Shown here: piece after piece, positions 3-19,905 of the stretch | Position numbering within the stretch: the stretch's first letter is position 1 | How the letters are laid out: each line of letters starts with the position of its first letter | NCBI GenBank assembly: GCA_017512365.1 | Contig: JAFWGQ010000001.1 | Coordinates: 94,863 to 131,843 of the forward strand | Reading direction: 5' to 3' | Length of the DNA stretch: 36,981 nt | Origin: Mogibacterium sp. | Lineage (GTDB): Bacteria > Bacillota > Clostridia > Peptostreptococcales > Anaerovoracaceae | The notes under the pieces: model-generated | Told to the model about the DNA's origin: nothing | The model's input: the letters and a program-made list of their open reading frames with translations, nothing else | Database searches by the model: none | Made by a program: the position numbers and the translations under genes

Positions 3-2855
3 GGAGCTGCAGCCGGCACACTCACTCTTGATGCGAACGGCAACAGCAATACCATAGACCTGGCTGAAGGGACGTATACAGTCAAAGAATCTGTAGCTCC
101 TCCGGGATATGCTCTGGATGGCAGCACCTATACGGTGAAAGTCGCATCTGATGAGACGACAACGTTCACTGCAAAGGATGAGCCTATTTCCGATCCGATA
201 AACCTGCTGCTCACAAAGAACCCTGCAGGCTATCTGCATGATCACGGCGAAGGAGATGCGTCTCTTGCAGGCGCGGTATATGAATTCAAGTTCTATGCCG
301 GTCAGTACAGCACGGTCGCTCAGGCTGAGGGCTCAAACAAGCTCAAGGCGACGTGGTACCTCGTGACTGATGCCAATGGAAAGATCAGCGGGCAGAAGCC
401 GGTGAAAGCATCCGGGTATACGAGCTCTGCGTTCTACAAGGACAAGGAGGGCAAGATCTGCTATCCTCTCGGGACTTATGTGATCCGTGAGGAGAAGGCC
501 CCTGATGGCTATCTTGTCAACAATGCGAAGCTCATAAACCATGTGACTGAAGACGGCACTGACAAAGTTCAGGTCAGAACCTACAACGAGACTATAAAGG
601 GTGAAGACACTATCGTCCGGGGCGGAGTGAAGATCTCCAAGATAGACAATGACCTCGATGAGGCTTATTCCCAGGGTGACGCTATTCTCCAGGGAGCTGA
701 ATTCACCATCTATAACCAGTCCAAAGAGACTGTGATGGTCGGAGGCAAGGAGATCGCCAAAGGTGAGGCTGCGCTCGTGATCACTACGAACGCTGACGGC
801 ATCGCGTCAACAGCTGCGAGAGCGCTTCCATACGGCTCATATCTCATAAAGGAGACGAAGCCTTCAAAGGGCTATCTCCTGAACAAGGAGTGGTCAAAAA
901 CATTCCAGATCAGGCAGGATGGTATGATCGTCGATCTGACCAAGGACAAGGTAAGAGAGGCGGTAGCCCGAGGCGGAGTGCAGATCATCAAGAGAGACAA
1001 GGAACTTGAAAAGTCCGAGGCTCTTGGCGGGGCACACCTCGATGGTATCGTGATGACGATCAAAAACGTGTCCGGCCATGATGTCGTGGTCAGAAAAGAC
1101 CTGGACAATAAGACCGATAAGGTCGACTGGAAGAAGCTCGGATCCAAGGAGGCACTGCTGAAAGACGGTACAATCAGAAGAGTCCCTACAGGAAAGGATG
1201 TCGGAAAGATCACAGTCCACTGGAACGAAGAGAAGAAGGCATACACTGCCGAGACTCTTGCGGATGATCTGCCATACGGCACATACACAATCCGCGAATC
1301 CAAGACAAATGAGTCCTATCAGAGGACAGACAAGACGGAACACAGATTCACGATCAGAGAGGACGGAGTGATCGTCTCTTATGACGACGACAGCAATGAG
1401 CAGGTTCTGACCTTCGATGATTATGTGTACAGATCAGACGTCCAGGGAACCAAGATCGCTGACTCTACTTCAGAGCGCTTCAGCTATGTCCCGTTCAAGA
1501 TCATCAGCGTGACTAACGGGGAGACCCATGTAGTCGTGACCGACAGCAACGGATTCTTCTCCACAAAGGACAGAAGAGCTGCCGGAGATCTCGATGAGGA
1601 TGAGGACGCGGACACTGCCAGAAAGCAGAACCCGTTCGATGACCTTCTTAAGGCAAAGGACATAAAGACAGCTGATCTGAAAGCCAGAAAGGACGATATC
1701 CTGCACGGCGTATGGTTCGGAACAGGCGAGCATGGGAGCAAGGCTGCAATGAACAGCGACTTCGGAGCCCTGCCTTTCGACTCATATATCCTCGAAGAGA
1801 TGCCGTGCGAGCATAACGAGGGATATACCCTTCAGAGGTTCTACTTCACAGTGGATCAGAAGTCCCAGACAGGCTTCATCGACCTTGAGACGATCACTGA
1901 CGATGTGCCTGAGATCGGAACGACTGCATCTGTAGCCGGCCAGAAGGAGAACGTACTTCCGTCCAAGAAGATAACACTCAATGACAGGATCAGATATAAG
2001 GGCCTGACAAGAGGCGAGAAGTATGTCGCGAAGGGTGTCCTGATGGACAAGGCGACAGGAAAGCCGGTGCTCGATCCGAATGGCAGGGAGATCACAGCTG
2101 AGAAGGAATTCACGGCTTTGCTTGGAACAGGCTGGGTCAATGTGACATTCACATTCGATGCGACCAGCCTCTTTGGCAAGACGACTGTAGTCTTCGAGAA
2201 GGTCTATGACGCAAGAGGCCACATCGCCGCGAAGCATGAAGACATCGATGACGAAGACCAGACAGTCACCTGGAAGAAGCCTTCGATCGGAACGACTCTT
2301 ACGGGAGACAAGGGTGTCAAGACAGTAGCTGCGTCTGAAAAGACGACTCTCACAGACACCATAGCCTACGAGGGCCTAGACCCGACCCAGTGGTATATCT
2401 TTGAAGGTACGCTGATGGTCAAGGACACAGCTGATCCGCTTGTGGAGCATGGCCATGAGGTAACGGTCTACAGTGACCCGTTCCAGCCTAAGGAGGCAAA
2501 GGGCGAAACGAAGGTGACATTCACCATCGATACCACGAACCTCAAGGGCAAGGAGCTCGTAGCGTTCGAGACTGCATACAGACTCGTGGGCTACAAGAAA
2601 GGCGATGATGTAACAAAGACGCCGTTCGAGAAGGTGGCCGAGCACAAGGATCTTAACGATAAAGGTCAGACCGTTAATATCGCTGACGGGAACACGCCGG
2701 TGCTTATCCCTGGTCCGGACACCGGAGACGGCAGCATGCTGAAGTTCTATATGGTCCTGCTCGGAGGAGCAGTCTCTGTGCTTACAGCCTATGTCGTGAG
2801 AGAAGGGATCAGGTCCCTCAAGAGGAGAAAAGAAGAAATGTCGATACTCGTCTGA
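3..2855 (+). CDS. SpaA/VaFE repeat surface-anchored protein, 5' partial
   Basis: The reading frame is open from the window edge, so the N-terminus is missing; the GTG at 135 is internal, since in-frame sequence before it (LTLDANGN, YTVKESVAPPGYAL) is already domain-like. Repeated SpaA/Cna-B-type beta domains follow, each ending in a motif such as YVIREEKAPDGYL, YLIKETKPSKGYL or YTIRESK. Two VaFE-type repeats come next (about 1910-2260 and 2280-2660), each starting PEIGTT or PSIGTT and ending near EDIDDEDQTV or KDLNDKGQTV. The C-terminus has a sorting-signal layout: PGPDTGDGS, a hydrophobic span (FYMVLLGGAVSVLTAYVV), then KRRKEE. I infer a sortase-anchored adhesin or pilus-like protein carried by the ICE, perhaps for contact with partner cells or host. 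The PDTGD motif is not a canonical LPXTG. Family assignment is firm; ligand unknown. Confidence 0.9.
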   Translation, partial: GAAAGTLTLDANGNSNTIDLAEGTYTVKESVAPPGYALDGSTYTVKVASDETTTFTAKDEPISDPINLLLTKNPAGYLHDHGEGDASLAGAVYEFKFYAGQYSTVAQAEGSNKLKATWYLVTDANGKISGQKPVKASGYTSSAFYKDKEGKICYPLGTYVIREEKAPDGYLVNNAKLINHVTEDGTDKVQVRTYNETIKGEDTIVRGGVKISKIDNDLDEAYSQGDAILQGAEFTIYNQSKETVMVGGKEIAKGEAALVITTNADGIASTAARALPYGSYLIKETKPSKGYLLNKEWSKTFQIRQDGMIVDLTKDKVREAVARGGVQIIKRDKELEKSEALGGAHLDGIVMTIKNVSGHDVVVRKDLDNKTDKVDWKKLGSKEALLKDGTIRRVPTGKDVGKITVHWNEEKKAYTAETLADDLPYGTYTIRESKTNESYQRTDKTEHRFTIREDGVIVSYDDDSNEQVLTFDDYVYRSDVQGTKIADSTSERFSYVPFKIISVTNGETHVVVTDSNGFFSTKDRRAAGDLDEDEDADTARKQNPFDDLLKAKDIKTADLKARKDDILHGVWFGTGEHGSKAAMNSDFGALPFDSYILEEMPCEHNEGYTLQRFYFTVDQKSQTGFIDLETITDDVPEIGTTASVAGQKENVLPSKKITLNDRIRYKGLTRGEKYVAKGVLMDKATGKPVLDPNGREITAEKEFTALLGTGWVNVTFTFDATSLFGKTTVVFEKVYDARGHIAAKHEDIDDEDQTVTWKKPSIGTTLTGDKGVKTVAASEKTTLTDTIAYEGLDPTQWYIFEGTLMVKDTADPLVEHGHEVTVYSDPFQPKEAKGETKVTFTIDTTNLKGKELVAFETAYRLVGYKKGDDVTKTPFEKVAEHKDLNDKGQTVNIADGNTPVLIPGPDTGDGSMLKFYMVLLGGAVSVLTAYVVREGIRSLKRRKEEMSILV

Positions 2856-4257: not shown

Positions 4258-4272
4258 AAGAAAGGAGAAATT

Positions 4273-4745: not shown

Positions 4746-4790
4746 TTCAATCCATTCAGTGCAGCGATCTATGATACTATTTTTTGAAAA

Positions 4791-4832
4791 GTTGTTATAA
4801 CAACATATCTTGAGCCGCATAAATGGTAACTT
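4791..4832 (+). promoter_or_regulatory. Crp/Fnr-type operator and promoter of the DUF438 gene
   Basis: The perfect palindrome GTTGTTATAACAAC (4791-4804) is centred at 4797.5. A -10-like TAACTT starts at 4827, 29.5 bp from the centre, the same spacing as at three other promoters here. There is no TTGACA-like -35, as expected for class II activation by a Crp/Fnr protein. Same half-site (GTTGTT) as upstream of hcp. Confidence 0.75.
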
Positions 4833-4895
4833 ACACTCAACAAGAGAGATGAAAGATTCAAAATGACTATTGTTTTACAAAAGGAGGTCAAATTG

Positions 4896-6452
4896 ATGAG
4901 TAGAGTAATAGACTTAAGAAAAACAATATTTGAACTTGCCGAGGAGCATGCCGATTTTGTTGAGATAATGAAGGAACTCGGATTTTCGGAAATAACTAAG
5001 AGCGCGATGCTCCATTCCGTAGGAAAGATTATGACTCTTCCTCGCGGAGCCAAGATGAAAGACATTCCGAAGGAAAAGATAATCAGTGTTTTCAATGAGA
5101 AGGGATTCGAATTTATCGGCCTTGAAAACGCAGAGGCAGCAGGAGCGTTTGCGGAATCATTTGAGAGAGCCGACGAAGCAACAACTTTAGCTGCAAGAGA
5201 TGCAGCGGCTATAAGTAATGCATCGGGCCGCACCGAACTGATTAAATCCTATCTGAGAAGGCTCGGAGAAGGAGAGACGTTGGAAGCTGTACAGGCAGAT
5301 TTTGTCAGAGAATTCGGGGAGGTAGAAGCATCCGAAATAATGAAGGCAGAGCAGGAACTCATGAAAGAGGGAACTCCACTAGAAGAAGTCCAGAAGCTTT
5401 GCGATGTTCACTCCGCACTGTTTCACGGCTCCACAAGAGAAGAGAAGATTATGAATGCTGAGAAGGCAGTGAATGAGTCTATGGCTAAAAGTGCCAGTGA
5501 CGGTCATGCCGCCATCCACGAGAGCGCAGCTAATAATGTTGAGAATGCTTCAAGACTTGAAAGCGTCACAGGACATCCTCTGTATACATTCACCAAGGAG
5601 AATGAAAAGCTTGCTGATCTCATAAGTGTCATAAGAGCCGCTATCGAGAAAAAGGGCGATGTCGCTGAGCTACTGACAAAGGTTCGCGAAATCTCCATCC
5701 ACTACGCGAAAAAAGGAGATCTTCTGTATCCGCACCTGAGCGTAAAATACGGTGTCACCGGTCCGTCACAGGTCATGTGGACGGTAGATGACGAGATAAG
5801 AGATGAACTTGGAGCACTTGAAAAAGAAAGGGACAGAGGTGACTGGTGGTTCACACGTCTCGGGAATGTGATTACAAGAGCGGAGGAGATGATCTACAAA
5901 GAGCAGAATATACTGTTCCCGATCTGTGCAGCCAGTTTCACAGATGAGGAGTGGGTAGGCATTTATCACGACTCCAAGGATTATGCGGACTGCTTCGGTG
6001 TAAAAAAGGAAATCTGGGACGAGGCTGAGGCTAATCTTCCTAAGCAAACTGTATCCGAAACTTCGGGAGAGATTGTAATGCCGGGTGGACACATGACACT
6101 TGAGCAGCTTACAGCACTTCTTAATACGATTCCACTTGAGATATCTTTCATAGATGCGGATAACATCAACAGATTCTTCAATGAGGGTCCTAAGGTGTTT
6201 AAGCGTCCGGGCATGGCACTTGACAGAGAGGTATTCTCCTGCCATCCGCCTAAGATAGAGCCTATGGTCCGCTCTATCTTAGATGATTTTAGGAATAATC
6301 GCCGTGATTCAGTTCCTGTATGGATGGATAAGAACGGCCGCACTTTCCTGGTGACATATATGGCTGTCAGAGATAATGAAAAGAATTATCTAGGCACTGT
6401 GGAAATAGTGCAGGATATGGAGTTTGCCAAGGAGCACTTCGGAATTGAGTAA
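4896..6452 (+). CDS. DUF1858-DUF438-hemerythrin-PAS sensor-like protein
   Basis: 518 residues from the ATG at 4896, which has AAGGAGG 8 bases upstream; an earlier in-frame ATG at 4863 has no such site. Order: DUF1858 (about 5-65), DUF438 (about 115-185, LIKSYLRRLGEGETLEAV), a hemerythrin-like HHE region (about 220-375, with TGHPLYTF, SIHYAKKGDLLYPH and EEMIYKEQNILFP), and a C-terminal PAS domain (about 400-518, FIDADNINRFF to VEIVQDME). It is cytoplasmic. Such proteins are thought to sense oxygen, NO or redox state through a di-iron site; the reaction is not known. The DUF1858 part lacks the cysteine pair seen in the short DUF1858 protein downstream. The gene meets crp1 stop to stop with no gap and shares its operator type with the hcp operon, so it probably belongs to the same response. 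Confidence 0.85.
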   Translation: MSRVIDLRKTIFELAEEHADFVEIMKELGFSEITKSAMLHSVGKIMTLPRGAKMKDIPKEKIISVFNEKGFEFIGLENAEAAGAFAESFERADEATTLAARDAAAISNASGRTELIKSYLRRLGEGETLEAVQADFVREFGEVEASEIMKAEQELMKEGTPLEEVQKLCDVHSALFHGSTREEKIMNAEKAVNESMAKSASDGHAAIHESAANNVENASRLESVTGHPLYTFTKENEKLADLISVIRAAIEKKGDVAELLTKVREISIHYAKKGDLLYPHLSVKYGVTGPSQVMWTVDDEIRDELGALEKERDRGDWWFTRLGNVITRAEEMIYKEQNILFPICAASFTDEEWVGIYHDSKDYADCFGVKKEIWDEAEANLPKQTVSETSGEIVMPGGHMTLEQLTALLNTIPLEISFIDADNINRFFNEGPKVFKRPGMALDREVFSCHPPKIEPMVRSILDDFRNNRRDSVPVWMDKNGRTFLVTYMAVRDNEKNYLGTVEIVQDMEFAKEHFGIE

Positions 6453-7127
6453 TCACTTATAGAGGTAACTGTCCTCGAGTAGAGTAAAGTCGCTTTTGCG
6501 GAATTCGATGAGTCCGTCCCTTTGCATCTTGCTCAGCTCACCTGAAAGGGCGCTTCTGTCAACGCCCAGATAATCTGCGAGCTCCTGCCTGGAGAACGGG
6601 ATGGAGAACCGCATACTTCCGCTTTTAAGTGCGCATTCAGACAGATAAGATAGAACTCTATCTCTGATCGATTTAGAAGCGGTATGCATCATACGAGATG
6701 ACAGATTGAGATTTTTCATAGCAGATATTCTGACAAGGTTGTGTATCAATCCATTATGGAATGCACAACCTTTTTTGCATGTTGTCAGCAGATTATCCAG
6801 ATTGAGAAAAAGTATTTCTGTCTCTTCCGCGGCTATTACATCGTTGAGAAGACGTCTTCCCGGGATGGCAGCATAGTTTTCAGCAAAAATGTCTCCACTG
6901 CCGACATGACCAAAGATATTGCTACTCCCCCAATAAAATGTAACGACAATATTAACGCTTCCGGATAACACCAGACCTATTTCGGAAATCTGATCACCTG
7001 CATGAAAGATGATGCCTCCTTTTCTGTACTTTTTAACCCTCGCTTTTAAGCAAGGAAGAATGCCTTCAATTTCTTTCTCGTTTAATCCCTTAAATAAGGC
7101 TGTTGTAGTCAGAAACTGATAATCCAT
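6453..7127 (-). CDS. Crp/Fnr family transcriptional regulator (Crp1)
   Basis: 224 residues, starting at the ATG at 7127: the AGGAG at 7137-7141 is 9 bases away from it but directly abuts the alternative ATG at 7136. N-terminal cyclic-nucleotide-binding-type beta barrel (about 10-105, FHAGDQISEIGLVLSGSVNI, GHVGSGDIFAENYA), a C117-x3-C121-x-F-H motif, the dimer helix, then a winged helix with SRQELADYLGVDRSALSGE (179-197). There is no Fnr-type N-terminal cysteine cluster. It is transcribed away from the hcp operon, and the palindrome at 7153-7166 lies between the two starts, so it probably activates hcp and may repress itself. Ligand unknown; relatives respond to anaerobiosis or NO. Confidence 0.9.
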   Translation of the reverse strand: MDYQFLTTTALFKGLNEKEIEGILPCLKARVKKYRKGGIIFHAGDQISEIGLVLSGSVNIVVTFYWGSSNIFGHVGSGDIFAENYAAIPGRRLLNDVIAAEETEILFLNLDNLLTTCKKGCAFHNGLIHNLVRISAMKNLNLSSRMMHTASKSIRDRVLSYLSECALKSGSMRFSIPFSRQELADYLGVDRSALSGELSKMQRDGLIEFRKSDFTLLEDSYLYK

Positions 7128-7152
7128 AATATTCATCTCCTAAATTAAAAAG

Positions 7153-7194
7153 GTTGTTACAACAACATACTTACTGCTTGAAGTCTATTATACT
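7153..7194 (+). promoter_or_regulatory. Crp/Fnr-type operator and promoter of the hcp operon
   Basis: GTTGTT-AC-AACAAC (7153-7166, centre 7159.5) has perfect 6-bp arms. TATACT (7189-7194) begins 29.5 bp from the centre, giving a predicted start near 7201 and an operator at about -41.5. On the other strand the palindrome sits just upstream of the crp1 ribosome binding site, suitable for autorepression. Confidence 0.8.
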
Positions 7195-7256
7195 TCCATC
7201 AAGAAAAGCAACAAAAAGATGCATATAAACTGCTTGATTAACCACAGGAGGAGATC

Positions 7257-7481
7257 ATGGAAACAGCATTAAACACTTATGTAAATAGCAAAACTCTCAT
7301 CGGAGAGGTAGTAAGGGACTATCCGGAATCAATCGATGTTCTAATGGCAGCGGGGATGCACTGCCTCGGATGCGCAGCATCACAGATGGAATCAATCGAG
7401 GATGCGTGTATGGTACACGGAATAGACTCGGAGCTTTTGCTAAACGCTTTGAATCACGTTATCGATATGAAAAAAGCATAG
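7257..7481 (+). CDS. DUF1858 Hcp-associated redox-disulfide protein
   Basis: 74 residues, with AGGAGG just before the ATG. DUF1858 fold with the CLGC pair (C38 and C41, in GMHCLGCAASQMESIEDAC). This matches the hybrid-cluster-protein-associated redox disulfide family, whose genes are typically next to hcp. It may shuttle electrons or protect the cluster, but no reaction is established. First gene of the operon driven from 7189; hcp follows after 34 bases. Confidence 0.88.
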   Translation: METALNTYVNSKTLIGEVVRDYPESIDVLMAAGMHCLGCAASQMESIEDACMVHGIDSELLLNALNHVIDMKKA

Positions 7482-7515
7482 CTAATTACCTATTTAATAA
7501 CAGGAGGGAGAAATC

Positions 7516-9159
7516 ATGGACAATAAAATGTTTTGTTATCAGTGCCAGGAGACGGCGAAAGGCACAGGCTGCACAGTATCAGGTGTATGCGGAAAGAATC
7601 CGGAAGTTGCAGGAATGCAGGATCTGCTCATATATGTTACAAAGGGTCTTGCAGCAGTTGCCACAAAACTAAGAGAAGAAGGAAAGACAGTAGGTAAAGA
7701 GGTCAATCACAGAATCACACTTAATCTCTTTACGACTATCACCAACGCAAACTTTGATAAGGAGAATATCACCGAGTATATCAAGGACACACTTCGCATT
7801 AAGGAAGAGCTGCTTACAAAGGTGGATAATAATGATGGACTTCCCGAGGCTGCTCTTTGGAGTGATGATGAGGCTGAGTTCGGAAACAAGGCTGTTTCAA
7901 ATGCAGTAGGCGTACTTGCTACAGAGAATGAAGATGTACGCAGCCTGAGAGAACTCATCACATACGGACTCAAGGGTCTTGCAGCTTACTCTAAGCACGC
8001 CAACGCACTTATGCAGGATAATGAAGCTATCGATGAATTCATCCAGCTCGCACTGACAAAGATCCAGGATGACAGCCTTTCGGTAGATGATCTTGTAGAA
8101 CTTACAATGGAAACCGGTAAATTCGGAGTGGACGGCATGGCACTTCTGGACGGAGCCAATACCGGCGCATATGGTAATCCTGAGATGACAAAGGTAAATA
8201 TCGGTGTAGGCAGCAATCCGGGTATCCTTATCTCGGGTCACGATCTAAGAGATCTGGAGATGCTTCTCAAGCAGACAGAAGGAACAGGAGTTGATGTATA
8301 TACACATTCCGAAATGCTGCCTGCTCACTACTATCCTGAGCTGAAGAAATACAAACATCTTGTAGGCAACTATGGAAATGCTTGGTGGAAGCAAAAGGAA
8401 GAGTTCGAGAAGTTCAACGGACCTATCCTGATGACAACAAACTGCGTTGTACCGCCTGCAGAGAGCTACAAGGACAGACTCTGGACTACAGGAGCAACCG
8501 CTGTACCCGGCTGTAAGCATATCTCCGGTGCCTATGGTGAAGAGAAGGATTTCTCGGAAATAATCGAGCAGGCTAAGAAGTGTGCTGCACCGGAAGAACT
8601 TGAGACCGGAACAATTGTCGGTGGCTTTGCTCATAACCAGGTGCTTGCACTTGCAGATCAGGTCGTAGATGCGGTTAAATCCGGAGCTATTCGTAAATTC
8701 GTGGTTATGAGCGGCTGCGACGGAAGAATGAAGTCCAGAGACTACTATAAGGAATTTGCCGAAGCACTTCCTAAGGATGTGGTAATACTGACATCCGGAT
8801 GTGCCAAGTATAAATACAATAAGCTGGGCCTCGGAGATATCAACGGGATTCCGAGAGTACTTGATGCAGGTCAGTGCAACGACAGCTATTCATGGGCGCT
8901 GATTGCACTTAAGCTAAAGGAGATCTTCGGTGCTGAGGATATCAACAATCTTCCGATTGAATTCAACATTGCATGGTATGAGCAAAAGGCTGTCATCGTC
9001 TTGCTGGCGCTGCTCTATCTCGGTGTTAATAATATCCATCTCGGACCGACTCTCCCTGCATTCCTGTCACCAAATGTAGCGAATGTACTGGTAGAAAACT
9101 TCGGAATCTCCGGAATCGGAACAGTAGAAGATGATATCAAACTCTTCTTTGGAGAATAA
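7516..9159 (+). CDS. hcp: Hydroxylamine reductase / hybrid cluster protein
   Basis: 547 residues, full length. The N-terminal cubane cluster cysteines are C7, C10, C19 and C25 ([20 protein letters not shown]). The hybrid-cluster ligands follow in order: H264 (THSEM), C310 (TTNCVVPP), C401 (MSGCDGR, the persulfide position), C429 (TSGCAKY), C454 (GQCNDS) and E489 (YEQKAV). Spacing of the last four matches the known D. vulgaris ligands. Cytoplasmic. Hcp reduces hydroxylamine to ammonia in vitro and NO to N2O in vivo, and it can act as a protein S-nitrosylase. An Hcr-type reductase is absent; the ferredoxin two genes downstream is a plausible donor. Confidence 0.98.
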
Positions 9160-9174
9160 AAGGAGACCGGCATT

Positions 9175-9507
9175 ATGAGAGAACCTATGAAGAATATAGC
9201 AAAAGCTGAAGTGCTCGTACTGAAGGATCAAGTGGCTTATCAGGAGGGCCAGGTGGTCAGCAGGACACTGGCTCAGAATGATGCTGTAAGTGTAACGCTA
9301 TTCTCATTTGACAAAGATGAAGAAATCAGCACGCATGAGTCCGGCGGAGATGCCCTTGTTACGTGCCTTGATGGTGTAGGCAAAATCACAATAGATGGAA
9401 CCGCATACCTACTGCACGAGGGCGAGTCTATCGTAATGCCGGCAGGTCATCCTCATGCGGTGTACGGGGAAGAACAGTTTAAAATGTTATTGACAGTAAT
9501 TTTTTAG
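9175..9507 (+). CDS. Small cupin-domain protein
   Basis: 110 residues, single cupin barrel: ISTHESGGDALVTCLDG as motif 1 and GESIVMPAGHPHAV as motif 2, so several of the usual metal-binding histidines and the glutamate are present (H and E in motif 1, two H in motif 2). An AAAGGAG site precedes the ATG at 9175; ATG 9187 is possible. It lies 15 bases after hcp and 11 before the ferredoxin gene, in the same operon. Small cupins often accompany hcp in anaerobes; substrate unknown. Confidence 0.85.
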   Translation: MREPMKNIAKAEVLVLKDQVAYQEGQVVSRTLAQNDAVSVTLFSFDKDEEISTHESGGDALVTCLDGVGKITIDGTAYLLHEGESIVMPAGHPHAVYGEEQFKMLLTVIF

Positions 9508-9518
9508 GAGGTGCTGAG

Positions 9519-9704
9519 ATGAAATACTTTGTAAATGAAAGCTGCATCGGATGCGGATTGTGTGCGTCAACATGCCCGGAGGTATTCTCCATGAACGATG
9601 CAGGCACTGCAGTCGCAATCGAAGGTGATGTCGATGATGCAAGTCTTGAGAGTGCAGCAGAGGCATGCAACGGATGCCCTGTTGCTGCGATAGAGCAAGC
9701 ATAG
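9519..9704 (+). CDS. [4Fe-4S] ferredoxin
   Basis: 61 residues. The cluster motif is CIGCGLCASTCPEVF near the N-terminus with a matching CNGCP near the C-terminus, the pattern of small one-cluster ferredoxins with an additional cysteine pair. TAGGAGG precedes the ATG. As the last gene of the hcp operon it is the likely electron donor to Hcp. Confidence 0.93.
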   Translation: MKYFVNESCIGCGLCASTCPEVFSMNDAGTAVAIEGDVDDASLESAAEACNGCPVAAIEQA

Positions 9705-9720
9705 AAAATGAGAGACTTGT

Positions 9721-9746
9721 AAGTGTGGTCAAAAAGTGTGGTCAAA
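9721..9746 (+). repeat. Two tandem copies of a 13-bp repeat
   Basis: AAGTGTGGTCAAA occurs at 9721-9733 and again directly at 9734-9746. It is 16 bases after the ferredoxin stop and 62 bases before the tRNA fragment. Short direct repeats beside a tRNA-derived att site are typical of recombinase arm sites, but this is only suggestive. Confidence 0.6.
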
Positions 9747-9808
9747 AGTAGAGGTGCAGTCTCAGACCAATTGAAATATTAAGAGTTTCGGGCGTGAAAG
9801 GGTGACAA

Positions 9809-9853
9809 TCTGCAAAACCTTCACCCCCGGTTCAAATCCGGGTGTCGCCTCCA
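9809..9853 (+). pseudogene. 3' part of a tRNA-Cys gene (probable att remnant)
   Basis: From 9809 the sequence matches the anticodon loop of tRNA-Cys (TCTGCAAAACC, anticodon GCA), a full T-arm (CCCGG-TTCAAAT-CCGGG), the 3' acceptor strand TGTCGCC, discriminator T and encoded CCA (9851-9853). Upstream there is no 5' acceptor strand (GGCGACA expected), no D-arm, and the 5' half of the anticodon stem does not pair. It cannot fold as a complete tRNA. Elements integrating into tRNA genes leave this kind of 3' copy at one end, so it may be an attachment site of a past or present island. Confidence 0.8.
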
Positions 9854-9857
9854 ACTG

Positions 9858-9904
9858 AAAACAGTGCACATACCTGAATTACAGGTCTGTATGCTGTTTT
9901 TTTA
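9858..9904 (+). terminator. Rho-independent terminator after the tRNA fragment
   Basis: AAAACAG (9858-9864) pairs with CTGTTTT (9894-9900), with an inner bulged stem (ACATACCTG with CAGG...GTATG), then further T. It may be the original terminator of the tRNA-Cys transcription unit, carried along with the tRNA end; here it can end the hcp operon transcript. Confidence 0.7.
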
Positions 9905-9947
9905 AGCCATAGATCGCTATTGTTTTGATTAATCGGAGATCTATCAC

Positions 9948-10142
9948 ATGAAAGACATTATCAAACAGGTAGCATTAAAGAATGGGGTCTCTGAAGAAGA
10001 GGTCAGAAAAGAGATGCAGAAAACGATACATGAAGCTTATCTGCAGAAATCGCCGACCTTCATCAATATGTTTGGAGACAAAGAACCATCTGTTGAAGAA
10101 TTTCTCGAAATGATCTCAGTGAGCGCCAAAGGAATATCCTGA
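9948..10142 (+). CDS. Small helical protein, Spo0A-C-terminal-like
   Basis: 64 residues: IKQVALKNGVSEEEVRKEMQ, then an aromatic middle (EAYLQKSPTFINMFG) and a C-terminal helix with VEEFLEMI. This resembles a family of small Clostridia proteins annotated as Spo0A C-terminal-like, which I recall from family knowledge and have not searched. In the same frame directly after the stop the sequence continues with coding-like residues (RYLDDEVPTNGDEIVTHAN) without a start, so either a nonsense mutation or a second degraded gene is possible. Weak ribosome binding site. Confidence 0.5.
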   Translation: MKDIIKQVALKNGVSEEEVRKEMQKTIHEAYLQKSPTFINMFGDKEPSVEEFLEMISVSAKGIS

Positions 10143-10221
10143 TATGAAAAAGCATATACAAGATATCTCGATGATGAGGTCCCGACCAATGGTGACGAAA
10201 TAGTAACACACGCGAACTGAC

Positions 10222-10476
10222 ATGAAAGAGAAGAGTCAACAGCTATATGATCTGATGCTTCAAAAAGGCTATCCTGAAGAATTCTCCAGGATAATCTGCC
10301 TCGAAATGAACACAGACTTCACAGCAGAAAGAATGATAAATTATGTAGCCGGTGAGAAGAAGAGACTTGGGGATGTTGCTGATGAGATGGTAGCAATAAA
10401 GGATCTCAGAGAGCGACTGATCAACAAGCATATCTCGGAACATGCAAATAACAGTTTCCTACATGACTCAGAATAG
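10222..10476 (+). CDS. Small hypothetical protein, 3' end altered
   Basis: 84 residues. MKEKSQQLYDLMLQKGYPEEFSRIIC, NTDFTAERMINYV and VADEMVAIKDLRERL match my memory of a common small Clostridia family of unknown function. Family-like sequence ends near EHAN (about 10450); the last residues (NNSFLHDSE) lie in DNA that antisense encodes the Crp2 remnant. So the original C-terminus was probably replaced when this segment joined the crp2 locus. Confidence 0.55.
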   Translation: MKEKSQQLYDLMLQKGYPEEFSRIICLEMNTDFTAERMINYVAGEKKRLGDVADEMVAIKDLRERLINKHISEHANNSFLHDSE

Positions 10477-10684
10477 TCCTGTTTCCCCACATATCATTGC
10501 TTTCAATACGGACACTGCCTTCAAGCACTAATCCCATCGTAGTTGTTGTACTTCCGGCATGCAAAATGACTTCGTCTTTTAAGAATTCCTTCTCAGATGA
10601 CTTAAGTGCAGATAAAGCCGTATCCAGCTCATTATCATTCATACCGCGGAATATAACAGTCTTTTTAAGTAAATCCTTATCCAT
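10421..10684 (-). pseudogene. Truncated Crp/Fnr regulator (Crp2), sensor half only
   Basis: 87 codons from the ATG at 10684. Residues 8-76 match Crp1 in order: VIFRGMNDNELDTALSAL, HAGSTTTTMGLVLEGSVRI and the WGNRTILSHVG stretch, where Crp1 has WGSSNIFGHVG. After G76 (about 10457) similarity stops and a stop follows, so half the beta barrel, the dimer helix and the helix-turn-helix are gone. It cannot bind DNA. The break point coincides with where the plus-strand small ORF loses its family sequence. It is divergent from the Fe-S gene, with the palindrome at 10709-10724 between them, the same arrangement as crp1 and hcp. Confidence 0.85.
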
Positions 10685-10707
10685 AAAAACTCTTGCAATT
10701 TTTCAAA

Positions 10708-10751
10708 ATGTGGTTATAACCACATACTTACAATACAAACTTTACTATACT
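10708..10751 (+). promoter_or_regulatory. Crp/Fnr-type operator and promoter of the Fe-S gene
   Basis: ATGTGGTTATAACCACAT (10708-10725) is a perfect 18-bp palindrome centred at 10716.5. TATACT (10746-10751) begins 29.5 bp from the centre. The bases after the arm, CATACTTAC, are identical to those after the hcp operator. Its presumed own regulator, Crp2, is truncated. Confidence 0.8.
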
Positions 10752-10794
10752 GACATTGGATAAACAAGACATAAGCAATACTGAGGATACCACG

Positions 10795-11427
10795 ATGATC
10801 AGGAAAATAATCCATATAGATGAAGAGAAATGCAACGGCTGTGGACTGTGTGCAGAGGCCTGCCACGAAGGCGCCATTGATATGGTGGACGGAAAGGCAA
10901 AACTGGTAAGAGAGAACTTTTGCGACGGATTTGGTGACTGTCTGCCGAACTGCCCGACAGGAGCGATCACATTCGAGGAAAGAGAAGCACCAGAGTATGA
11001 TGAAGCTGCGGTCAAAGCTGCGCAGGCAAAGAAAGCGGAGGTACCAGAAAACTATAGGAATATATCCAGGCTCGGCCAGTGGCCATGCCAGATCAAGCTC
11101 TTGCCGACAGAGGCACCGTTCTTCGATGGGGCAAAGCTGCTGATAGCTGCCGACTGCACAGCCTATGCTTACGCCAACATGCATGAGGACTTCATGAAGG
11201 GAAAGATTACTGTCATAGGTTGCCCTAAGCTTGATGCTATAGATTACAGCGAGAAGCTTACAGACATTATCAGGAACAACGATATAAAGAGTGTGACTAT
11301 TGTCCGCATGGAGGTTCCTTGCTGTGGAGGGCTACAGAGAGCAGCGGAGAACGCACTCAGAAACAGCGGCAAATTCATACCATGGCAGGTAGTCACTATT
11401 TCAAGAAACGGAAGGATACTGGATTAG
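10795..11427 (+). CDS. Two-cluster ferredoxin with C-terminal Cys-rich domain
   Basis: 210 residues from the ATG at 10795 (GAGGA before it). An upstream in-frame TTG at 10756 falls at the predicted transcript start and is not plausible. Two [4Fe-4S] motifs occupy about 12-60 (CNGCGLCAEACHEGAI and CDGFGDCLPNCPTGAI). The C-terminal domain has PCQIKLLPTEAPFF, AADCTAYAYA, VIGCPKLDA and EVPCCGGL, a pattern found in Fe-S proteins that accompany hcp and sulfite reductase genes in anaerobes. Probably a cytoplasmic electron carrier. Expressed from its own operator-promoter, 192 bases ahead of asrA. Confidence 0.85.
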   Translation: MIRKIIHIDEEKCNGCGLCAEACHEGAIDMVDGKAKLVRENFCDGFGDCLPNCPTGAITFEEREAPEYDEAAVKAAQAKKAEVPENYRNISRLGQWPCQIKLLPTEAPFFDGAKLLIAADCTAYAYANMHEDFMKGKITVIGCPKLDAIDYSEKLTDIIRNNDIKSVTIVRMEVPCCGGLQRAAENALRNSGKFIPWQVVTISRNGRILD

Positions 11428-11479
11428 TTTTCGTCGAAACAGATGCGGTATTATGGTTTTTTTATATACAAACTCAGCG

Positions 11480-11522
11480 CGTAACCATGGTTACGGAAAT
11501 CAAAAAATAATGCATATATAAT
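11480..11522 (+). promoter_or_regulatory. Crp/Fnr-type operator and promoter of the asr operon
   Basis: CGTAACCATGGTTACG (11480-11495) is a perfect 16-bp palindrome centred at 11487.5. A consensus -10, TATAAT (11517-11522), begins exactly 29.5 bp from the centre. Predicted start near 11529, leaving a leader of about 90 bases before asrA. The half-site differs from the other operators, which suggests a different regulator; Crp3, at the end of this operon, is the obvious candidate. Confidence 0.82.
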
Positions 11523-11619
11523 CGAATTGGGTACGGATATTGCTCGTAAAATGACGTGCCCTACTTTTATATATGTGGATGTAATAATGTGTAGATTGCT
11601 GCAGAAACGGAGGGAAACG

Positions 11620-12639
11620 ATGGGTTTTGTTTACAAGACTGAAGAGTTCAACAAAGTCCTCGAAGTTCTTGAAGGTAAGTACAGGATATTCGCGCCGGTG
11701 TTAAAAGTCGGAGAGGGCCGCTTCAGAGACACCGATGTGATCCGCTACGACTACATCAGCTGCATCGAAGATGCCGAGCTGGAGGAACGTTCGGATTTCT
11801 CCTTTAAGGAGATCCTGATACCTCTTTCGGAGACTATGTTCTACTTTACAGAGAACGAGATAAAGGAAGCGGATTATGATGCCCGTCCTGTAATCGTGCT
11901 GATGAGAAGCTGCGATATCCACGCGGTGAAGAGACTCGATCAGATGTATACAGGTAACGGGCCAAACAACGACTGGTTCTATGAGAGGCTCAGAGACAGA
12001 GTGAAATTCGCTCTGATTGGATGCGGAAAGGCGTGTCCGAACAGCTTTTGCGTAGACATGGGAAGCAACAAGACAGATGAGTATGCTTTCTCGATCGATG
12101 TTGTCGATGGCAAAGTGTACTGCGATGTCAAAGATGATGAACTGTTTGCTGCATTCGAAGGCGCAGGCGGTTCAAAAGATAATGTTGAGCCTCGTTTTGT
12201 GACAGAGGCGGAGTTCAAGGTAACAAGGCCGGAGGAAGTACCTATCGAGTTGTTCAAGGATCCGATGTGGGATGAGTACACCAAGCGTTGTGTCAACTGC
12301 GGCCGCTGTAACTTCGTATGCCCGACCTGCACATGCTTTACGATCCAGGACGTTTTCTATACGGATAACGGCAGAGTAGGCGAACGCCGCCGCGTCAACG
12401 CTTCATGCATGGTAGACGGATATACCGATGTAGCAGGCGGTCTGGTAATGAGAAAAACCAACGGCGAGAGAATGAGATTCAAGGTCCTACACAAGGTGTA
12501 TGACTTCAGAAAACGCTTCGGCTACGATATGTGCGTAGGCTGCGGACGCTGCGATACTGTATGCCCTGAGTATATCTCGTTTGCGAACTGTATAAACAAA
12601 CTTAACGCGAGAGTGAAGGAGGTGACAGAGAATGTGTAA
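11620..12639 (+). CDS. asrA: Anaerobic sulfite reductase subunit A
   Basis: 339 residues; the ATG at 11620 has GGAGGG 6 bases upstream, while the longer frame begins at the transcript start. Two C-terminal [4Fe-4S] motifs: C224-C227-C230-C234 (CVNCGRCNFVC) and C305-C308-C311-C315 (CVGCGRCDTVC). AsrA passes electrons to AsrC within the cytoplasmic AsrABC complex, which reduces sulfite to sulfide. First gene of the operon; it overlaps asrB by 8 bases. Confidence 0.96.
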   Translation: MGFVYKTEEFNKVLEVLEGKYRIFAPVLKVGEGRFRDTDVIRYDYISCIEDAELEERSDFSFKEILIPLSETMFYFTENEIKEADYDARPVIVLMRSCDIHAVKRLDQMYTGNGPNNDWFYERLRDRVKFALIGCGKACPNSFCVDMGSNKTDEYAFSIDVVDGKVYCDVKDDELFAAFEGAGGSKDNVEPRFVTEAEFKVTRPEEVPIELFKDPMWDEYTKRCVNCGRCNFVCPTCTCFTIQDVFYTDNGRVGERRRVNASCMVDGYTDVAGGLVMRKTNGERMRFKVLHKVYDFRKRFGYDMCVGCGRCDTVCPEYISFANCINKLNARVKEVTENV

Positions 12640-13435
12640 CTGCGGAAAGAATGAATATACACCTGTTCCTTCAAAGCTTCAGGACATTATAAAACATACG
12701 GCTCAGGAATGGACTTTCAGATTTACTTACGTTGGAGATGTAAAACCGGGACAGTTTTTCCAGATCTCGATCCCTAAGGTCGGAGAATGCCCTATCTCGG
12801 TCAGCGGCATCGGGCCTGATTACGTTGACCTGACCCTGAGAGCCGTAGGAAAAGTTACGGACTATCTATTTGATAACTTCAAGGCAGGCGACAGCCTCTT
12901 CCTCCGCGGACCTTACGGAAATGGCTTTGATGTGCATGAGTTTGAAGGCGGAGAGCTGATCATCGTTGTCGGCGGTACTGCAGTTTCACCTGTCAGAGGT
13001 GTAGTACAGTATCTGTGCGAGACTGAAAGCGCGAAAGACGTGCATATGATCGCCGGATTCAAGGACCCGGGAGAGATCATGTTCAAGGCAGACCTTAAGG
13101 ATTGGGCTGAGAAGATCGACCTGACGCTTACTGTCGACGGCGCGCCTGAAGGATATGAGGGCAAGGTCGGCCTGGTCACCAAATACATTCCGGACATCCC
13201 GATCAGAGATATCAGTAAGTGCAAGGCCATCGTAGTAGGCCCGCCTCCGATGATCAAGTTCTCTATGATCGAACTCGTCAAGAGAGGTCTAAGTGAGGAT
13301 AACGTCTGGATCTCGGATTCGAGAAGGATGAGCTGCGGGATCGGAAAGTGCGGTCACTGCCGCATCAACGACAAGTATGTCTGCATCGATGGTCCTGTAT
13401 TCAAGTTCTCTGAGCACAAGACACTGATCGATTAG
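12632..13435 (+). CDS. asrB: Anaerobic sulfite reductase subunit B
   Basis: 267 residues. FAD/NAD(P)H-binding reductase of the ferredoxin-NADP reductase superfamily: flavin-binding LFLRGPYGNGF, nucleotide-binding IIVVGGTAVSPVRGV and VVGPPPMIKF, then a [2Fe-2S] site C235, C240, C243, C251 (CGIGKCGHC...C). AsrB takes electrons from a pyridine nucleotide and feeds AsrA. The start overlaps asrA by 8 bases (coupled); asrC follows after 14 bases with GCGGGAGGTGG as ribosome binding site. Confidence 0.96.
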   Translation: MCNCGKNEYTPVPSKLQDIIKHTAQEWTFRFTYVGDVKPGQFFQISIPKVGECPISVSGIGPDYVDLTLRAVGKVTDYLFDNFKAGDSLFLRGPYGNGFDVHEFEGGELIIVVGGTAVSPVRGVVQYLCETESAKDVHMIAGFKDPGEIMFKADLKDWAEKIDLTLTVDGAPEGYEGKVGLVTKYIPDIPIRDISKCKAIVVGPPPMIKFSMIELVKRGLSEDNVWISDSRRMSCGIGKCGHCRINDKYVCIDGPVFKFSEHKTLID

Positions 13436-13449
13436 CGGGAGGTGGAACC

Positions 13450-14505
13450 ATGAATAAAACGACTACAGATACTAATTTAAAGAAACTGAAGAAGAACGCC
13501 TACCGTGTATCCAAGGTCAGAGGAGAAACCGCTTCCCGTGTTCGCTGCCCGGGCGGAGAGATCGATGTTGATTCGCTGCAGCGTGTCGTCGATATAGCCA
13601 GAAAATACGGCAAGGGCATGGTAAACATCACGAACCGTCAGGGATTTGAGATCCCGGGGATCGATCTGAAGGATGTTGAAGAAGTCAACAAGGCTCTTCA
13701 GCTGATAATCGAGAACAGAAACATCAATCAGGAAGAGTATAACGGCGGATATCCTGCTTCTGGAACACGTAATGTCGTGGCTTGTCCGGGCAAACAGCTC
13801 TGCCCGTTCGCCAACTATGATACAAAGAAATTCGCGCAGGAGATAGATAAGGCTATATTCCCGAACGATCATCACGTTAAGATCGCCTTCACAGGCTGCT
13901 CGAATGACTGCGCACACACACGTCTTAATGACTTTGGTATCATCGGCATGAGTGAGCCTCAATACAACAAGGATCGCTGCATCAGCTGCGAGCAGTGCGT
14001 CAAGTACTGCAAAAAGCGATCAGTCGGAGCTCTAAAGGTTGTAAATGGCAAAATAGAGCGTGATGTCAACAAATGCGTAGGATGCGCACTCTGTGTCAAT
14101 TACTGCCCAACGAGAGCATGGACAAGAAGCAAAGAAGAGTATTACCGCGTCGTGCTGCTTGGACGTACTGGCAAGAAGAATCCTCGCATGGCAGAAGACT
14201 TCATGAGGTGGGCAGACCATGATACCGTGAAGAAAGTCATCTGTAACGTATATGCATATCTGGATGAATATCTGGACAGAGAGGCAGTTGAGAGCAAGGA
14301 ACATATCGGCTATATCGTTGACCGTACCGGTTTTGAGGAATTCCTGAAATACATCATGAAGGATGTCACTCCGAATCCGAAGTGCGAGATCCAGGGAAGA
14401 ATCTACTGGGGCGGCAAGCGCTACGATCAGAACAACGAGCTTAGAAACTCAATGTGGCGTTTTTCCGAGAGAGAAGATGCGGTAGTTCTGAAGCAAGGAG
14501 AATAA
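13450..14505 (+). CDS. asrC: Anaerobic sulfite reductase subunit C (siroheme subunit)
   Basis: 351 residues. The siroheme/[4Fe-4S] motif is C112-x5-C118 (CPGKQLC) and C150-x3-C154 (GCSNDC), the signature of sulfite and nitrite reductases. An inserted ferredoxin domain carries C177-C180-C183-C187 and C209-C212-C215-C219. It catalyses six-electron reduction of sulfite to sulfide. Length and order fit the Salmonella-type assimilatory/detoxifying AsrC rather than DsrAB. One base separates its stop from the channel gene. Confidence 0.97.
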   Translation: MNKTTTDTNLKKLKKNAYRVSKVRGETASRVRCPGGEIDVDSLQRVVDIARKYGKGMVNITNRQGFEIPGIDLKDVEEVNKALQLIIENRNINQEEYNGGYPASGTRNVVACPGKQLCPFANYDTKKFAQEIDKAIFPNDHHVKIAFTGCSNDCAHTRLNDFGIIGMSEPQYNKDRCISCEQCVKYCKKRSVGALKVVNGKIERDVNKCVGCALCVNYCPTRAWTRSKEEYYRVVLLGRTGKKNPRMAEDFMRWADHDTVKKVICNVYAYLDEYLDREAVESKEHIGYIVDRTGFEEFLKYIMKDVTPNPKCEIQGRIYWGGKRYDQNNELRNSMWRFSEREDAVVLKQGE

Positions 14506-14506: not shown

Positions 14507-15271
14507 ATGTTCAATGAAGAATTCACAGCTGCTTCCAAAGGAGCAGCCGCAAAATCCGCTCTTCTGAAGAAGAATCCGGGTGGCTACTTTCTGCTGTCCA
14601 TGCTGGCAGGAGCATACATCGGCTTTGGTATCCTTCTGGTATTTACATTAAGCGGAGCACTTGCCGGAGCACCATACACTAAACTTGTGATGGGTTGCTG
14701 CTTCGGCATTGCACTGAGTCTTGTGGTGATAGCTGGCGCGGAATTATTTACCGGTAATAATCTGGTAATGACCGCCGGTCTCCTTCGCAAGACCGTAACA
14801 CTTGGCGACGCACTGAAGCTGTGGGGAGTATGCTGGGTCGGAAATCTCGCAGGCTCGGCGCTGCTGGCATTGGTATTCAGCCTGACGGGACTCTACAGTG
14901 ACGCGACTCTGAGCGCTATGACAGGCGCTGCGGCGGCAAAGATGACGGCAGGCTTCATACCGCTTCTGACAAGAGGCATGCTGTGTAATACACTGGTATG
15001 CCTGGCTGTATGGTGCGGCTTCAGAGCTAAATCGGACGCAGGCAAGCTGCTTATGATCTTCTGGTGTCTGCTGGCATTCTTTGCAACAGGATTTGAGCAT
15101 AGTATCGCCAACATGACATTGCTGACGCTGGCTCTTATCAACAACGGAGGCAACGAGGCAATCAGCATGGGAGGTTACTGGTACAACCTGATTGTAGTAA
15201 CTTTAGGCAACATGATCGGAGCGATACTGTTTGTTGCGCTGCCGTATCATTTCGCATCAAAAGAAAAATAA
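14507..15271 (+). CDS. FNT-family channel, probable hydrosulfide channel
   Basis: 254 residues, six hydrophobic spans with FNT features: AGAYIGFGILLVF, a broken helix after ELFTGNNLVMTAGLL, and the second repeat with GFEHSIANMTLL, where H198 is the conserved pore histidine. FNT proteins pass formate, nitrite or hydrosulfide. A hydrosulfide channel of this family is known beside asrABC in Clostridioides difficile, so export of sulfide made by AsrC is the best reading; sulfite uptake is the alternative. A GGAG site precedes the ATG. Confidence 0.9.
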   Translation: MFNEEFTAASKGAAAKSALLKKNPGGYFLLSMLAGAYIGFGILLVFTLSGALAGAPYTKLVMGCCFGIALSLVVIAGAELFTGNNLVMTAGLLRKTVTLGDALKLWGVCWVGNLAGSALLALVFSLTGLYSDATLSAMTGAAAAKMTAGFIPLLTRGMLCNTLVCLAVWCGFRAKSDAGKLLMIFWCLLAFFATGFEHSIANMTLLTLALINNGGNEAISMGGYWYNLIVVTLGNMIGAILFVALPYHFASKEK

Positions 15272-18200: not shown

Positions 18201-18214
18201 AGAGGAAATAATGA

Positions 18215-19201: not shown

Positions 19202-19905
19202 AGATACTTGCAAAAAATGATGAGAGCCTGAAATCAGTGCTGCATGATACTGCTTTGTTCAAGAATTTGAGCGAGGAAGAAATACAGAGATGTCTCGCGT
19301 GCAGTAAGGCTGAAAGCATCTATTATGAGAAAGGCGAGATGGTGTTCTCAGAAGAAGATCATCCTGCTTGTCTGCCGATGCTTATCAGCGGTTCCGTTAC
19401 CCTTGGAATGGATTATTCCGACGGGAAAAGAAATATCATCGCTATGTTTGAGAACAAGGGTGACATTTTCGGTCAAGAGCTTATCCTAATTGGAGAAAGT
19501 AAATACGGAATGTATGCGCAGGCGCAGACAAAGTCACTTATACTAATGATACCGAAAGATTTCCTTGTAGGGACCTGTGAGCGGAACTGCGGTTTTCATT
19601 CCACCTTGATTTCGAACATGCTGCTGATGATGGCTCAGAAATCACTGATTCTCAACGAGCGGCTTGAGATAATGTCATGCAGTACTCTGAGACAGAAAAT
19701 AGCCAAGATGATATTGTTCAGCATTGGTGACAAATCATCCATGTCAGTTTCCATGAGCAGGCAAGAGACAGCAGATTTTCTCAATGCAGCTAGACCATCT
19801 CTTTCAAGAGAACTTATGAGAATGCAAAATGACGGTTTGATAACGGTTGAAGGCAGAAAAATCACGGTAAAGGATAGGAACGCGCTCGAAGAGATACTTA
19901 ATTGA
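19192..19905 (+). CDS. Crp/Fnr family transcriptional regulator (Crp3)
   Basis: 237 residues, start overlapping hemB by 10 bases, so it is co-expressed with the asr operon. Sensor barrel (about 20-115, LISGSVTLGMDYSDGKRNIIAMF, NKGDIFGQELILI), then C129-x3-C133-G-F-H, dimer helix, and winged helix with SRQETADFLNAARPSLSRE (189-207). Residues next to the recognition arginine differ from Crp1 (AARPSLSR against VDRSALSG), consistent with a different operator. Likely controls the CGTAACCATGGTTACG site before asrA, giving autoregulation. No Fnr-type cluster cysteines; ligand unknown (sulfite, NO or redox are candidates). Confidence 0.9.
   Translation: MSVKILAKNDESLKSVLHDTALFKNLSEEEIQRCLACSKAESIYYEKGEMVFSEEDHPACLPMLISGSVTLGMDYSDGKRNIIAMFENKGDIFGQELILIGESKYGMYAQAQTKSLILMIPKDFLVGTCERNCGFHSTLISNMLLMMAQKSLILNERLEIMSCSTLRQKIAKMILFSIGDKSSMSVSMSRQETADFLNAARPSLSRELMRMQNDGLITVEGRKITVKDRNALEEILN

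Follow-up and report, generated by a model that had tools for sequence, protein, structure and literature searches.

Class II promoters of Escherichia coli, which depend on CRP or FNR, carry an operator centred at -41.5 and a conserved -10 hexamer and have no consensus -35 element. Four predicted promoters with these same features lie in the stretch of DNA analysed here, 36,981 nucleotides of a Mogibacterium sp. contig (JAFWGQ010000001.1), which as a whole we call the window. Their operator sequences and regulators differ from those of E. coli, and together with their relatives they keep a single geometry across at least four operator classes. They precede genes for a hemerythrin-like protein, the hybrid cluster protein (Hcp), a ferredoxin and anaerobic sulfite reductase (AsrABC), and the same part of the window holds the genes of two intact Crp/Fnr regulators, Crp1 and Crp3, and the remnant of a third, crp2. 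We name regulators by their residues 180, 181 and 185 in CRP numbering, RPR standing for R180 P181 R185.

The closest described systems are the HcpR-type regulons. In these regulons a Crp/Fnr regulator stands beside hcp and the ferredoxin gene frdX, ferredoxin- and hemerythrin-like genes are often included, and the recognition helix co-evolves with the operator, residues 180 and 181 being the determinants; HcpR2 has the published consensus GTAACnnnnGTTAC together with P181 (PMC1274295). The window is alike in these respects: Crp1 adjoins hcp with a palindrome (operator 2) between the two genes, which is the arrangement that marks HcpR (a regulator adjoining hcp and/or frdX), and Crp3 with operator 4 equals the HcpR2 pair of P181 and consensus, whereas Crp1 (S181, GTTGTT) does not. 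In C. difficile, hcpR also adjoins frdX-hcp, controls both positively and has a nitrosative-stress phenotype, with one regulator and one predicted site (PMC12915319) where the window has three regulator types. D. desulfuricans has two HcpR paralogs, HcpR1 acting on its own operon and HcpR2 on hcp; the hcp of this species is induced by nitric oxide (NO), and its hemerythrin-PAS protein Ddes_1165, proposed as a YtfE equivalent, resembles the DUF438 protein of the window in its domains. It differs from the window in that repression has been proposed for HcpR2 and in that HcpR1 reads TGTGA (PMC5701242).

To the known HcpR regulons and the known co-evolution of helix and operator, the window and its relatives add further operator classes (GTTGTTA, GTGGTTA and GTTTG), a link of residue 185 to operator position 7, the kept 29.5-bp spacing from operator to -10, asr under an RPR-type operator, a Cys3-His motif, and, within 15 kb, three operators and three regulator types, one of them broken. 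Some overlap is possible between the S181 classes and the separate Ser181 motifs given for C. difficile and C. thermocellum (PMC1274295). Residue 185 or these operator classes in HcpR-like proteins appeared in none of the titles and abstract openings of the literature searched, mostly without subscription papers, and the passages covered of PMC12937710 make no mention of HcpR.

One promoter geometry, kept in relatives

An initial annotation, made from the letters of the window alone, had placed four palindromes each exactly 29.5 bp ahead of the first base of a -10 hexamer, and its centres, hexamers and distance all proved exact (Table 1). It had also reported no TTGACA-like -35, and the best matches at 16-18 bp spacing indeed reach 2, 2, 2 and 3 of 6. 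Each of the four plus-strand gene groups is preceded by such a palindrome with its spaced -10; all the palindromes are perfect except number 2, in which one central pair is mismatched. The operator centre falls at -41.5 on the assumption that transcription starts 12 bp after the first hexamer base, that base being -12. Of the three arm types that had been described, GTTGTT and GTGGTT are one base pair per arm apart.

The chance level was estimated from 300 first-order Markov simulations of the window, both strands being counted. Perfect 7+7 GT..AC palindromes number 6 by strand count (3 sites) in the window, 3 of them with TANNNT at 29.5 bp, against simulated means of 0.16 and 0.0; with at most one mismatch there are 8 (4 sites) and 4, against means of 2.7 and 0.03, and a perfect palindrome with a spaced -10 occurred in none of the 300 simulated windows. 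Throughout the assembly (2,457,865 bases, 92.9% complete, 6.94% contamination), GTKGTTNNAACMAC is found at three places, all inside the same 6-kb stretch of the window, and its reversed control at none. The pattern GTAACNNNNGTTAC also has three occurrences, palindrome 4 among them, and its control has one, so that palindrome 4 is less exclusive by its short motif.

The initial annotation had proposed looking for the same palindromes at the same spacing in related genomes, and this check was run on a wider set of 239 Crp-like open reading frames (ORFs), 233 of them distinct, from 235 loci. The operator was taken as the best upstream palindrome with an outer GT and at least 6 of 7 pairs, the -10 being ignored, and a GT-type operator was found for 144 ORFs. 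In operators so chosen, TANNNT lies at 29.5 bp in 128 of 141 (75/85, 28/29 and 25/27 by class), and a match of at least 5/6 to TATAAT lies there in 113 of 144 promoters. The best -35 match is 2/6 in 102 of 141 promoters and 4/6 at most. When the palindrome search was loosened by dropping the outer GT, TANNNT stood at 29.5 bp in 108/182 on the side divergent from the regulator, with side peaks at 26.5 (82), 24.5 (55) and 21.5 bp (34), and in 7/183 on the crp side. The most frequent position is thus 29.5 bp, and it falls within a conserved T/A-rich stretch. The proposed class II geometry by Crp/Fnr-type operators, with its spacing kept and its centre at -41.5 from the predicted start, thus gains comparative support.

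Operator type follows the recognition helix

Counted by half-sites, RSN regulators go with GTTGT (111/114), RSR with GTTGC (54/54), RTK with GTGGT (43/46), RSS and RSG with GTTGT (18/18, RSH 5/6) and RAV with GTTTG (4/4), while RSA is mixed (GTTGT 16, GTTGA 8, GTTTG 2, GTTGG 2), RSV has GTTTG 3 and GTTGG 1, and RPR has GTAAC in the single case of the first set. With sequences weighted, the highest-ranking of 220 alignment columns is 185 for operator position 7 and 181 for position 6. The first gene divergent from the regulator matches the 210-aa ferredoxin or Hcp in 111 of 144 cases, and what stands downstream of these operators most often is a match to this ferredoxin (87/144, loose ferredoxin matches included). 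The claim that the regulators are paralogs with diverged DNA specificity gains comparative support; the operator type tracks the helix of the neighbouring regulator.

A rule fixed beforehand was then applied to held-out ORFs of 55 loci from new genomes of the class and phylum, 5 of 60 having been dropped as seen before. Operators were found in 30 of 54 ORFs, and TANNNT lies at 29.5 bp in 28 of these 30, with matches of at least 5/6 in 21. The rule called 23 of the 30 operators correctly and 7 wrongly. Agreement was complete for RSN (5/5, one in a single arm only), RSS (2/2), RSH (1/1), RSR (5/5), RAV (1/1) and RTK (2/2, each with just one GTGG arm), and reached 1/2 for RSA. The geometry thus holds strongly in new genomes, and the code carries over for S-N/S/H, for S-R and mostly for P-R.

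Several results weigh against the geometry or the code, or narrow them. As regards the geometry, the hexamer of site 1, TAACTT, is weak, and a second -10-like hexamer (at least 5/6) stands at 24.5 bp in 67 of 144 promoters, 54 times beside one at 29.5 bp and 13 times without it, while 18 promoters have neither; among the held-out operators it stands there in 12 of 30. The true -10 is uncertain in those relatives because of this second hexamer, which might mark an alternative start or belong to the conserved T/A-rich stretch; the four promoters of the window have none at 24.5 bp. As regards coverage, no GT-type operator was found for 89 of the 233 distinct ORFs or for 24 of the 54 held-out ones, 12 of 29 asr promoters outside the genus have no GT palindrome (one with short upstream sequence), and the first sets were gathered with Crp1 as the query. 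As regards the code, RSK regulators had GTGGT in 7 of 12 half-sites of the first set (GTTGT 3, GTTGC 2) and failed in the held-out set (0/3), and RPR agreed in 6/9, the misses being two GTAGCC-like and one GTATC. For operator position 5 the columns of the cysteine motif come out on top, with 181 fourth and 185 seventh, so that this position is confounded with descent. There are only 5-6 changes per trait on an N-terminal FastTree tree, and independent pairs on supported branches agree in about 3/4 (K185/G5) and 0.9/1 (R185/C7) with no pair opposed, numbers too small for significance. The first set had suggested that K185 by itself determines G5; the held-out RSK result refuted this and leaves the T181-K185 pair only.

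The code that we propose from these comparisons would read S-N/G/S/H as GTTGT, S-R as GTTGC, T-K as GTGGT, A-V as GTTTG, P-R as GTAAC and E-R as GTGA, and in related genomes a change of operator key usually goes along with a change of two or three residues in the regulator. A wider generalisation, which we put forward tentatively and with a little less than even confidence, is that residues 181 and 185 of one helix set three operator base pairs, giving HcpR-like regulators of anaerobic Firmicutes and their neighbours a small, evolvable code on a frozen 29.5-bp geometry, by which whole stress operons (asr, ferredoxin-hcp) pass between paralogs by operator letters alone, many of these paralogs having a new sensor centre (an N-terminal Cys and CxxxCxxH) that the T-K branch lacks. 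Such a code would be quantitative and testable for a regulator family common in anaerobes, and the operators and targets of unstudied HcpR-like proteins would become predictable from three residues.

Proposed mechanism and competing readings

Very probably, all four sites are promoters that HcpR-like Crp/Fnr regulators activate in the class II manner, with Crp1 and Crp3 each serving its own operator type, and divergent DNA specificity on a kept promoter geometry is well supported by the comparisons above. What the data show is the sites, how they are spaced and conserved, and the statistical agreement between operator and helix; for binding, activation, protein-site assignment and inducer we propose the following. 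A regulator dimer on the palindrome at -41.5 would stand in for a -35 element and recruit RNA polymerase to the -10 beginning 29.5 bp downstream. Crp1 (R180 S181 G185) would read GTTGTTA half-sites, its predicted binding sequence being GTTGTTATAACAAC, and activate the DUF438 hemerythrin gene and the DUF1858-hcp-cupin-ferredoxin genes, while Crp3 (R180 P181 R185) would read GTAACCA half-sites, with the predicted binding sequence GTAACCATGGTTAC, and activate the asr-FNT-siroheme-crp3 run (FNT, formate/nitrite transporter family channel). We propose that Crp3 activates itself, since its gene lies in that run. The GTGGTTA operator of the ferredoxin gene would belong to Crp2 (R180 T181 K185) and, because crp2 is broken here, may be left without a regulator, may have passed to Crp1, or may depend on an RTK regulator truncated at a contig end (G000:C6). 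The inducer may be nitrite, NO or sulfite, perhaps sensed through a metal centre on the Cys3-His motif of Crp1 and Crp3.

The reading that competes best with separate assignments is that Crp1 alone serves three GTKGTT sites in this organism, GTGG being a tolerated variant and Crp2 having been lost without effect, which we consider quite possible though on balance doubtful. The two types are one base pair per arm apart, mixed GTTGTTA/GTGGTTA operators occur beside RSK, RTK and RSH regulators, and the GTKGTTNNAACMAC pattern covers exactly these three sites; but discrimination seems to be selected, given that GTGG half-sites go with RTK in 43/46 cases while RSN and RSG keep GTTGT in 119/122.

A second alternative bears on crp2. 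The initial annotation had counted three crp genes beside the palindromes; two are intact, and the third is an 87-aa N-terminal remnant with a partial PF00027 match below cut-off and no match to a helix-turn-helix family, while crp3 closes the asr run and so stands well away from the palindromes, some 7.7 kb downstream of palindrome 4. The first ~77 residues of the remnant match the Crp2 of the genus with up to 91% identity, after which the frame is lost; full-length Crp2 orthologs in same-genus genomes have R180 T181 K185. That the break is an artefact of assembly, with an intact crp2 next to operator 3 in the organism itself, is in our judgement unlikely. The contamination of the assembly is in its favour, as is the RTK DNA-binding domain at the edge of contig G000:C6, which is 97.4% identical over 460 bp to the crp2 locus of another genome; yet the likeness of the remnant to its orthologs fades raggedly, the alignment extending it to residue 94 across two stops, an ORF at 10222-10476 reads into the remnant, and the C6 piece is of the G017/G035 type whereas the remnant is of the G008 type.

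Some observations at contig ends touch the same gene. The end of G000:C6 (44978-45157) holds an RTK DNA-binding domain of another Crp2 type, and at the ends G000:C6 and G022:C10 (L034, L035; loci are cited by our own numbers) two same-genus assemblies stop within a crp2-type gene at the same codon (~residue 162), both leaving the RTK DNA-binding domain only.

Far less probable is that the palindromes are repressor sites from which the regulators are released by NO or sulfite, as in the model for D. desulfuricans HcpR2, whose Fe-S (iron-sulfur) cluster is damaged by NO (PMC5701242). Three operator classes have their centre upstream at -41.5, keep the -10 and lack a -35, which is the architecture of an activator; deletion of hcpR in B. 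thetaiotaomicron abolishes hcp transcription (PMC13370916), and an hcpR::Tn insertion in C. difficile lowers hcp and frdX (PMC12915319). Mere coincidence of four palindromes and a fixed spacing in AT-rich intergenic DNA is scarcely credible, being supported by none of the tests run and contradicted by the simulations, the genome-wide counts and the 28 of 30 held-out operators with the spacing.

A Cys3-His motif and the signals

Crp1 and Crp3 carry a cysteine motif that Crp2 orthologs (RTK) lack, consisting of an N-terminal Cys and a CxxxCxxH. The latter stands before the dimer helix in 162 ORFs, of which 160 also have a Cys near residue 30. Among 230 ORFs both parts are present in 163, one alone in 11 and neither in 56, so the two co-occur in 163 of the 174 that have either. 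In 41 aligned Crp1-type proteins C29 is invariant; these were preselected for CxxxCxxH, which makes the invariance of C120, C124 and H127 among them uninformative. PDB sequences matching Crp1 number 21 and those matching Crp3 number 44; CxxxCxxH was in none of the four PDB alignments compared (7t8o, 4ev0, 1o5l, 3dkw), of which 1o5l has the N-terminal Cys. The motif looks like the ligand set of a metal centre and is a likely sensor site, in proteins that have been noted as lacking the FNR cysteine motif (PMC1274295). For comparison, HcpR2 of D. desulfuricans has been modelled with an Fe-S cluster (PMC5701242), and HcpR of P. gingivalis binds heme through Met68 (PMC12750200). As an observation in its own right, the Crp1-type proteins in L054-L259 have the N-terminal Cys and CxxxCxxH together, and the RTK regulators lack this motif.

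The initial annotation had joined Hcp, an Fe-S carrier and sulfite reduction in one response. This is not supported as worded. Each operator type pairs with a different regulator: the DUF438 gene and hcp go with Crp1, the ferredoxin with Crp2 orthologs and asr with Crp3. The genes may share one response, and separate signals are equally likely, because Crp2 orthologs are without the Cys motif of Crp1 and Crp3. The FNT gene adjoining asr may encode a channel for hydrosulfide, as is known from C. difficile. Stress by NO and nitrite is suggested by Hcp, by FrdX and by the hemerythrin protein with its likeness to YtfE. In A. acetoxydans (Acididesulfobacillus), AsrABC and Hcp rise together in nitrate reduction and Asr has been proposed as a nitrite reducer, although asr mutants of Salmonella were still able to reduce nitrite (PMC10949509).

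Conservation in the genus and beyond

Among 14 same-genus loci that carry a Crp2 ortholog, 12 have operator 3 and its TATACT in identical form; of the two exceptions, L040 has crp2 and ferredoxin matches that abut and leave no room, and L051 starts inside the gene. A variant operator, GGTGGTAA.TAACCACG, stands with two more RTK regulators of the genus (L043, L044). Of 10 same-genus loci examined for operator 4, nine have an asrA match, and in all nine operator 4 with TATAAT precedes asrA, once with one mismatch. As far as contigs reach, the order in the genus is crp2, ferredoxin, asrABC, FNT (missing from L041 and L042), siroheme genes in two loci, and crp3. Part of the cluster may have moved recently, because the asr proteins of L038 and L039 are 98-100% identical to those of the window. 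At the DNA level, positions 11436-20275 have 98-99% identity to L038 and L039 over 8.6-8.8 kb, and the sequence just upstream 86-90%, a hint of recent transfer or gene conversion.

Outside the genus, 15 of 29 asr promoters have TGTGA-type palindromes, 12 with the spaced -10 (L269, L270, L272-L275, L277, L278, L281, L285, L286 and L289), and of the others one has a TGTAAT-type palindrome with spaced -10 and one another kind. When ten loci from other genomes of the order were opened wider, E181 regulators appeared in four, all with a TGTGA-type palindrome before asrA: L367 and L368 have an RER regulator just upstream of asrA (L367 without the spaced hexamer), L366 has a RETVSR regulator about 6 kb away, and L370 has RETVSK. 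As for the remaining six, L369 and L371 have an operator and no Crp was found in either, L373 and L374 have neither, L372 has an RSV regulator and no matching operator, and L375 is an hcp locus. The asr genes seem to have moved between Crp paralogs with the operator rewritten.

A search of 35 same-genus genomes gave no Crp1 ortholog above 49% identity; its closest relatives (88%) are in another genus of the family, and others are in many other Firmicutes and in Collinsella, according to sequence-record labels. In four of six loci examined (L123, L054, L056, L062), DUF438, DUF1858, hcp and cupin genes surround crp1, while L074 is without hcp and DUF1858 and L106 (Anaerotruncus colihominis DSM 17241) has hcp only; a cupin gene is near the crp1 ortholog in five of the six. 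DUF438 is present in 22 of 79 named loci, 19 of them with readable upstream DNA, and 12 of these 19 have a GT-type operator there, 11 with TANNNT at 29.5 bp; L123, the closest ortholog, has no GT-type operator before DUF438 by this criterion. In nine separate relatives, DUF438 is preceded by an operator and -10 in three, by a GTAAC-like palindrome without the spaced hexamer in two, and by none in four.

Gene content of the window

Table 1. Promoter elements and genes of the stress cluster (positions in the window)
Feature	Position	Strand	Basis
Operator 1, AGTTGTTATAACAACA, RSG/RSN type	4790..4805, centre 4797.5	+	
-10 hexamer TAACTT, weakest of four; predicted start ~4839	4827..4832	+	
DUF1858-DUF438-hemerythrin-PAS protein	4896..6452	+	Pfam
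Crp1, HcpR-like regulator, intact, 227 aa; R180 S181 G185; C29, C120xxxC124xxH127	6453..7136	-	
Operator 2, GGTTGTTACAACAACA, between crp1 and hcp genes	7152..7167, centre 7159.5	+	
-10 hexamer TATACT; predicted start ~7201	7189..7194	+	
DUF1858 / prismane-associated redox disulfide protein	7257..7481	+	
Hcp, hybrid cluster protein	7516..9159	+	NCBIfam NF003658, 853.6 bits
Cupin protein	9175..9507	+	
Small 4Fe-4S ferredoxin, 61 aa	9519..9704	+	translation
crp2 remnant, 87 aa, residues ~1-77 recognisable in frame; DNA-binding domain absent	10421..10684	-	
Operator 3, TGTGGTTATAACCACA, RTK type	10709..10724, centre 10716.5	+	
-10 hexamer TATACT; predicted start ~10758	10746..10751	+	
FrdX-like 4Fe-4S ferredoxin, 210 aa	10795..11427	+	
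Operator 4, CGTAACCATGGTTACG, RPR type	11480..11495, centre 11487.5	+	
-10 hexamer TATAAT; predicted start ~11529	11517..11522	+	
asrA, asrB, asrC, anaerobic sulfite reductase	11620..14505	+	TIGR02910, TIGR02911, TIGR02912 over cut-off
Formate/nitrite transporter family channel (FNT)	14507..15271	+	PF01226
Siroheme-precursor genes	15290..19201	+	translations; order conserved in L038, L039
Crp3, HcpR2-like regulator, intact, 237 aa; R180 P181 R185; N-terminal Cys + CxxxCxxH	19192..19905	+	

Crp1 and Crp3 match PF00027 and PF13545 over cut-off and so belong to the Crp/Fnr family. Going by their sequences, we take the siroheme genes to be precorrin-2 dehydrogenase-HemC, CobA-HemD and HemB. In L081 the first gene divergent from the regulator encodes a ferredoxin like the 61-aa one.

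Positions 9790-9855, which fall between the hcp genes and the crp2 remnant, look like a tRNA 3' half, with a T-arm-like GGTTCAAATCC followed by CCA; no tRNA gene was called there by ARAGORN, and the stretch is possibly the scar of an integration site. Positions 135..2855 encode a SpaA/T-Q ester surface protein by Pfam. The genes at 135-4584 and 22483-36270 resemble an integrative conjugative element (relaxase, VirD4/TraG-like, ArdC-like), as judged from their translations, and the stress cluster may be cargo of this element.

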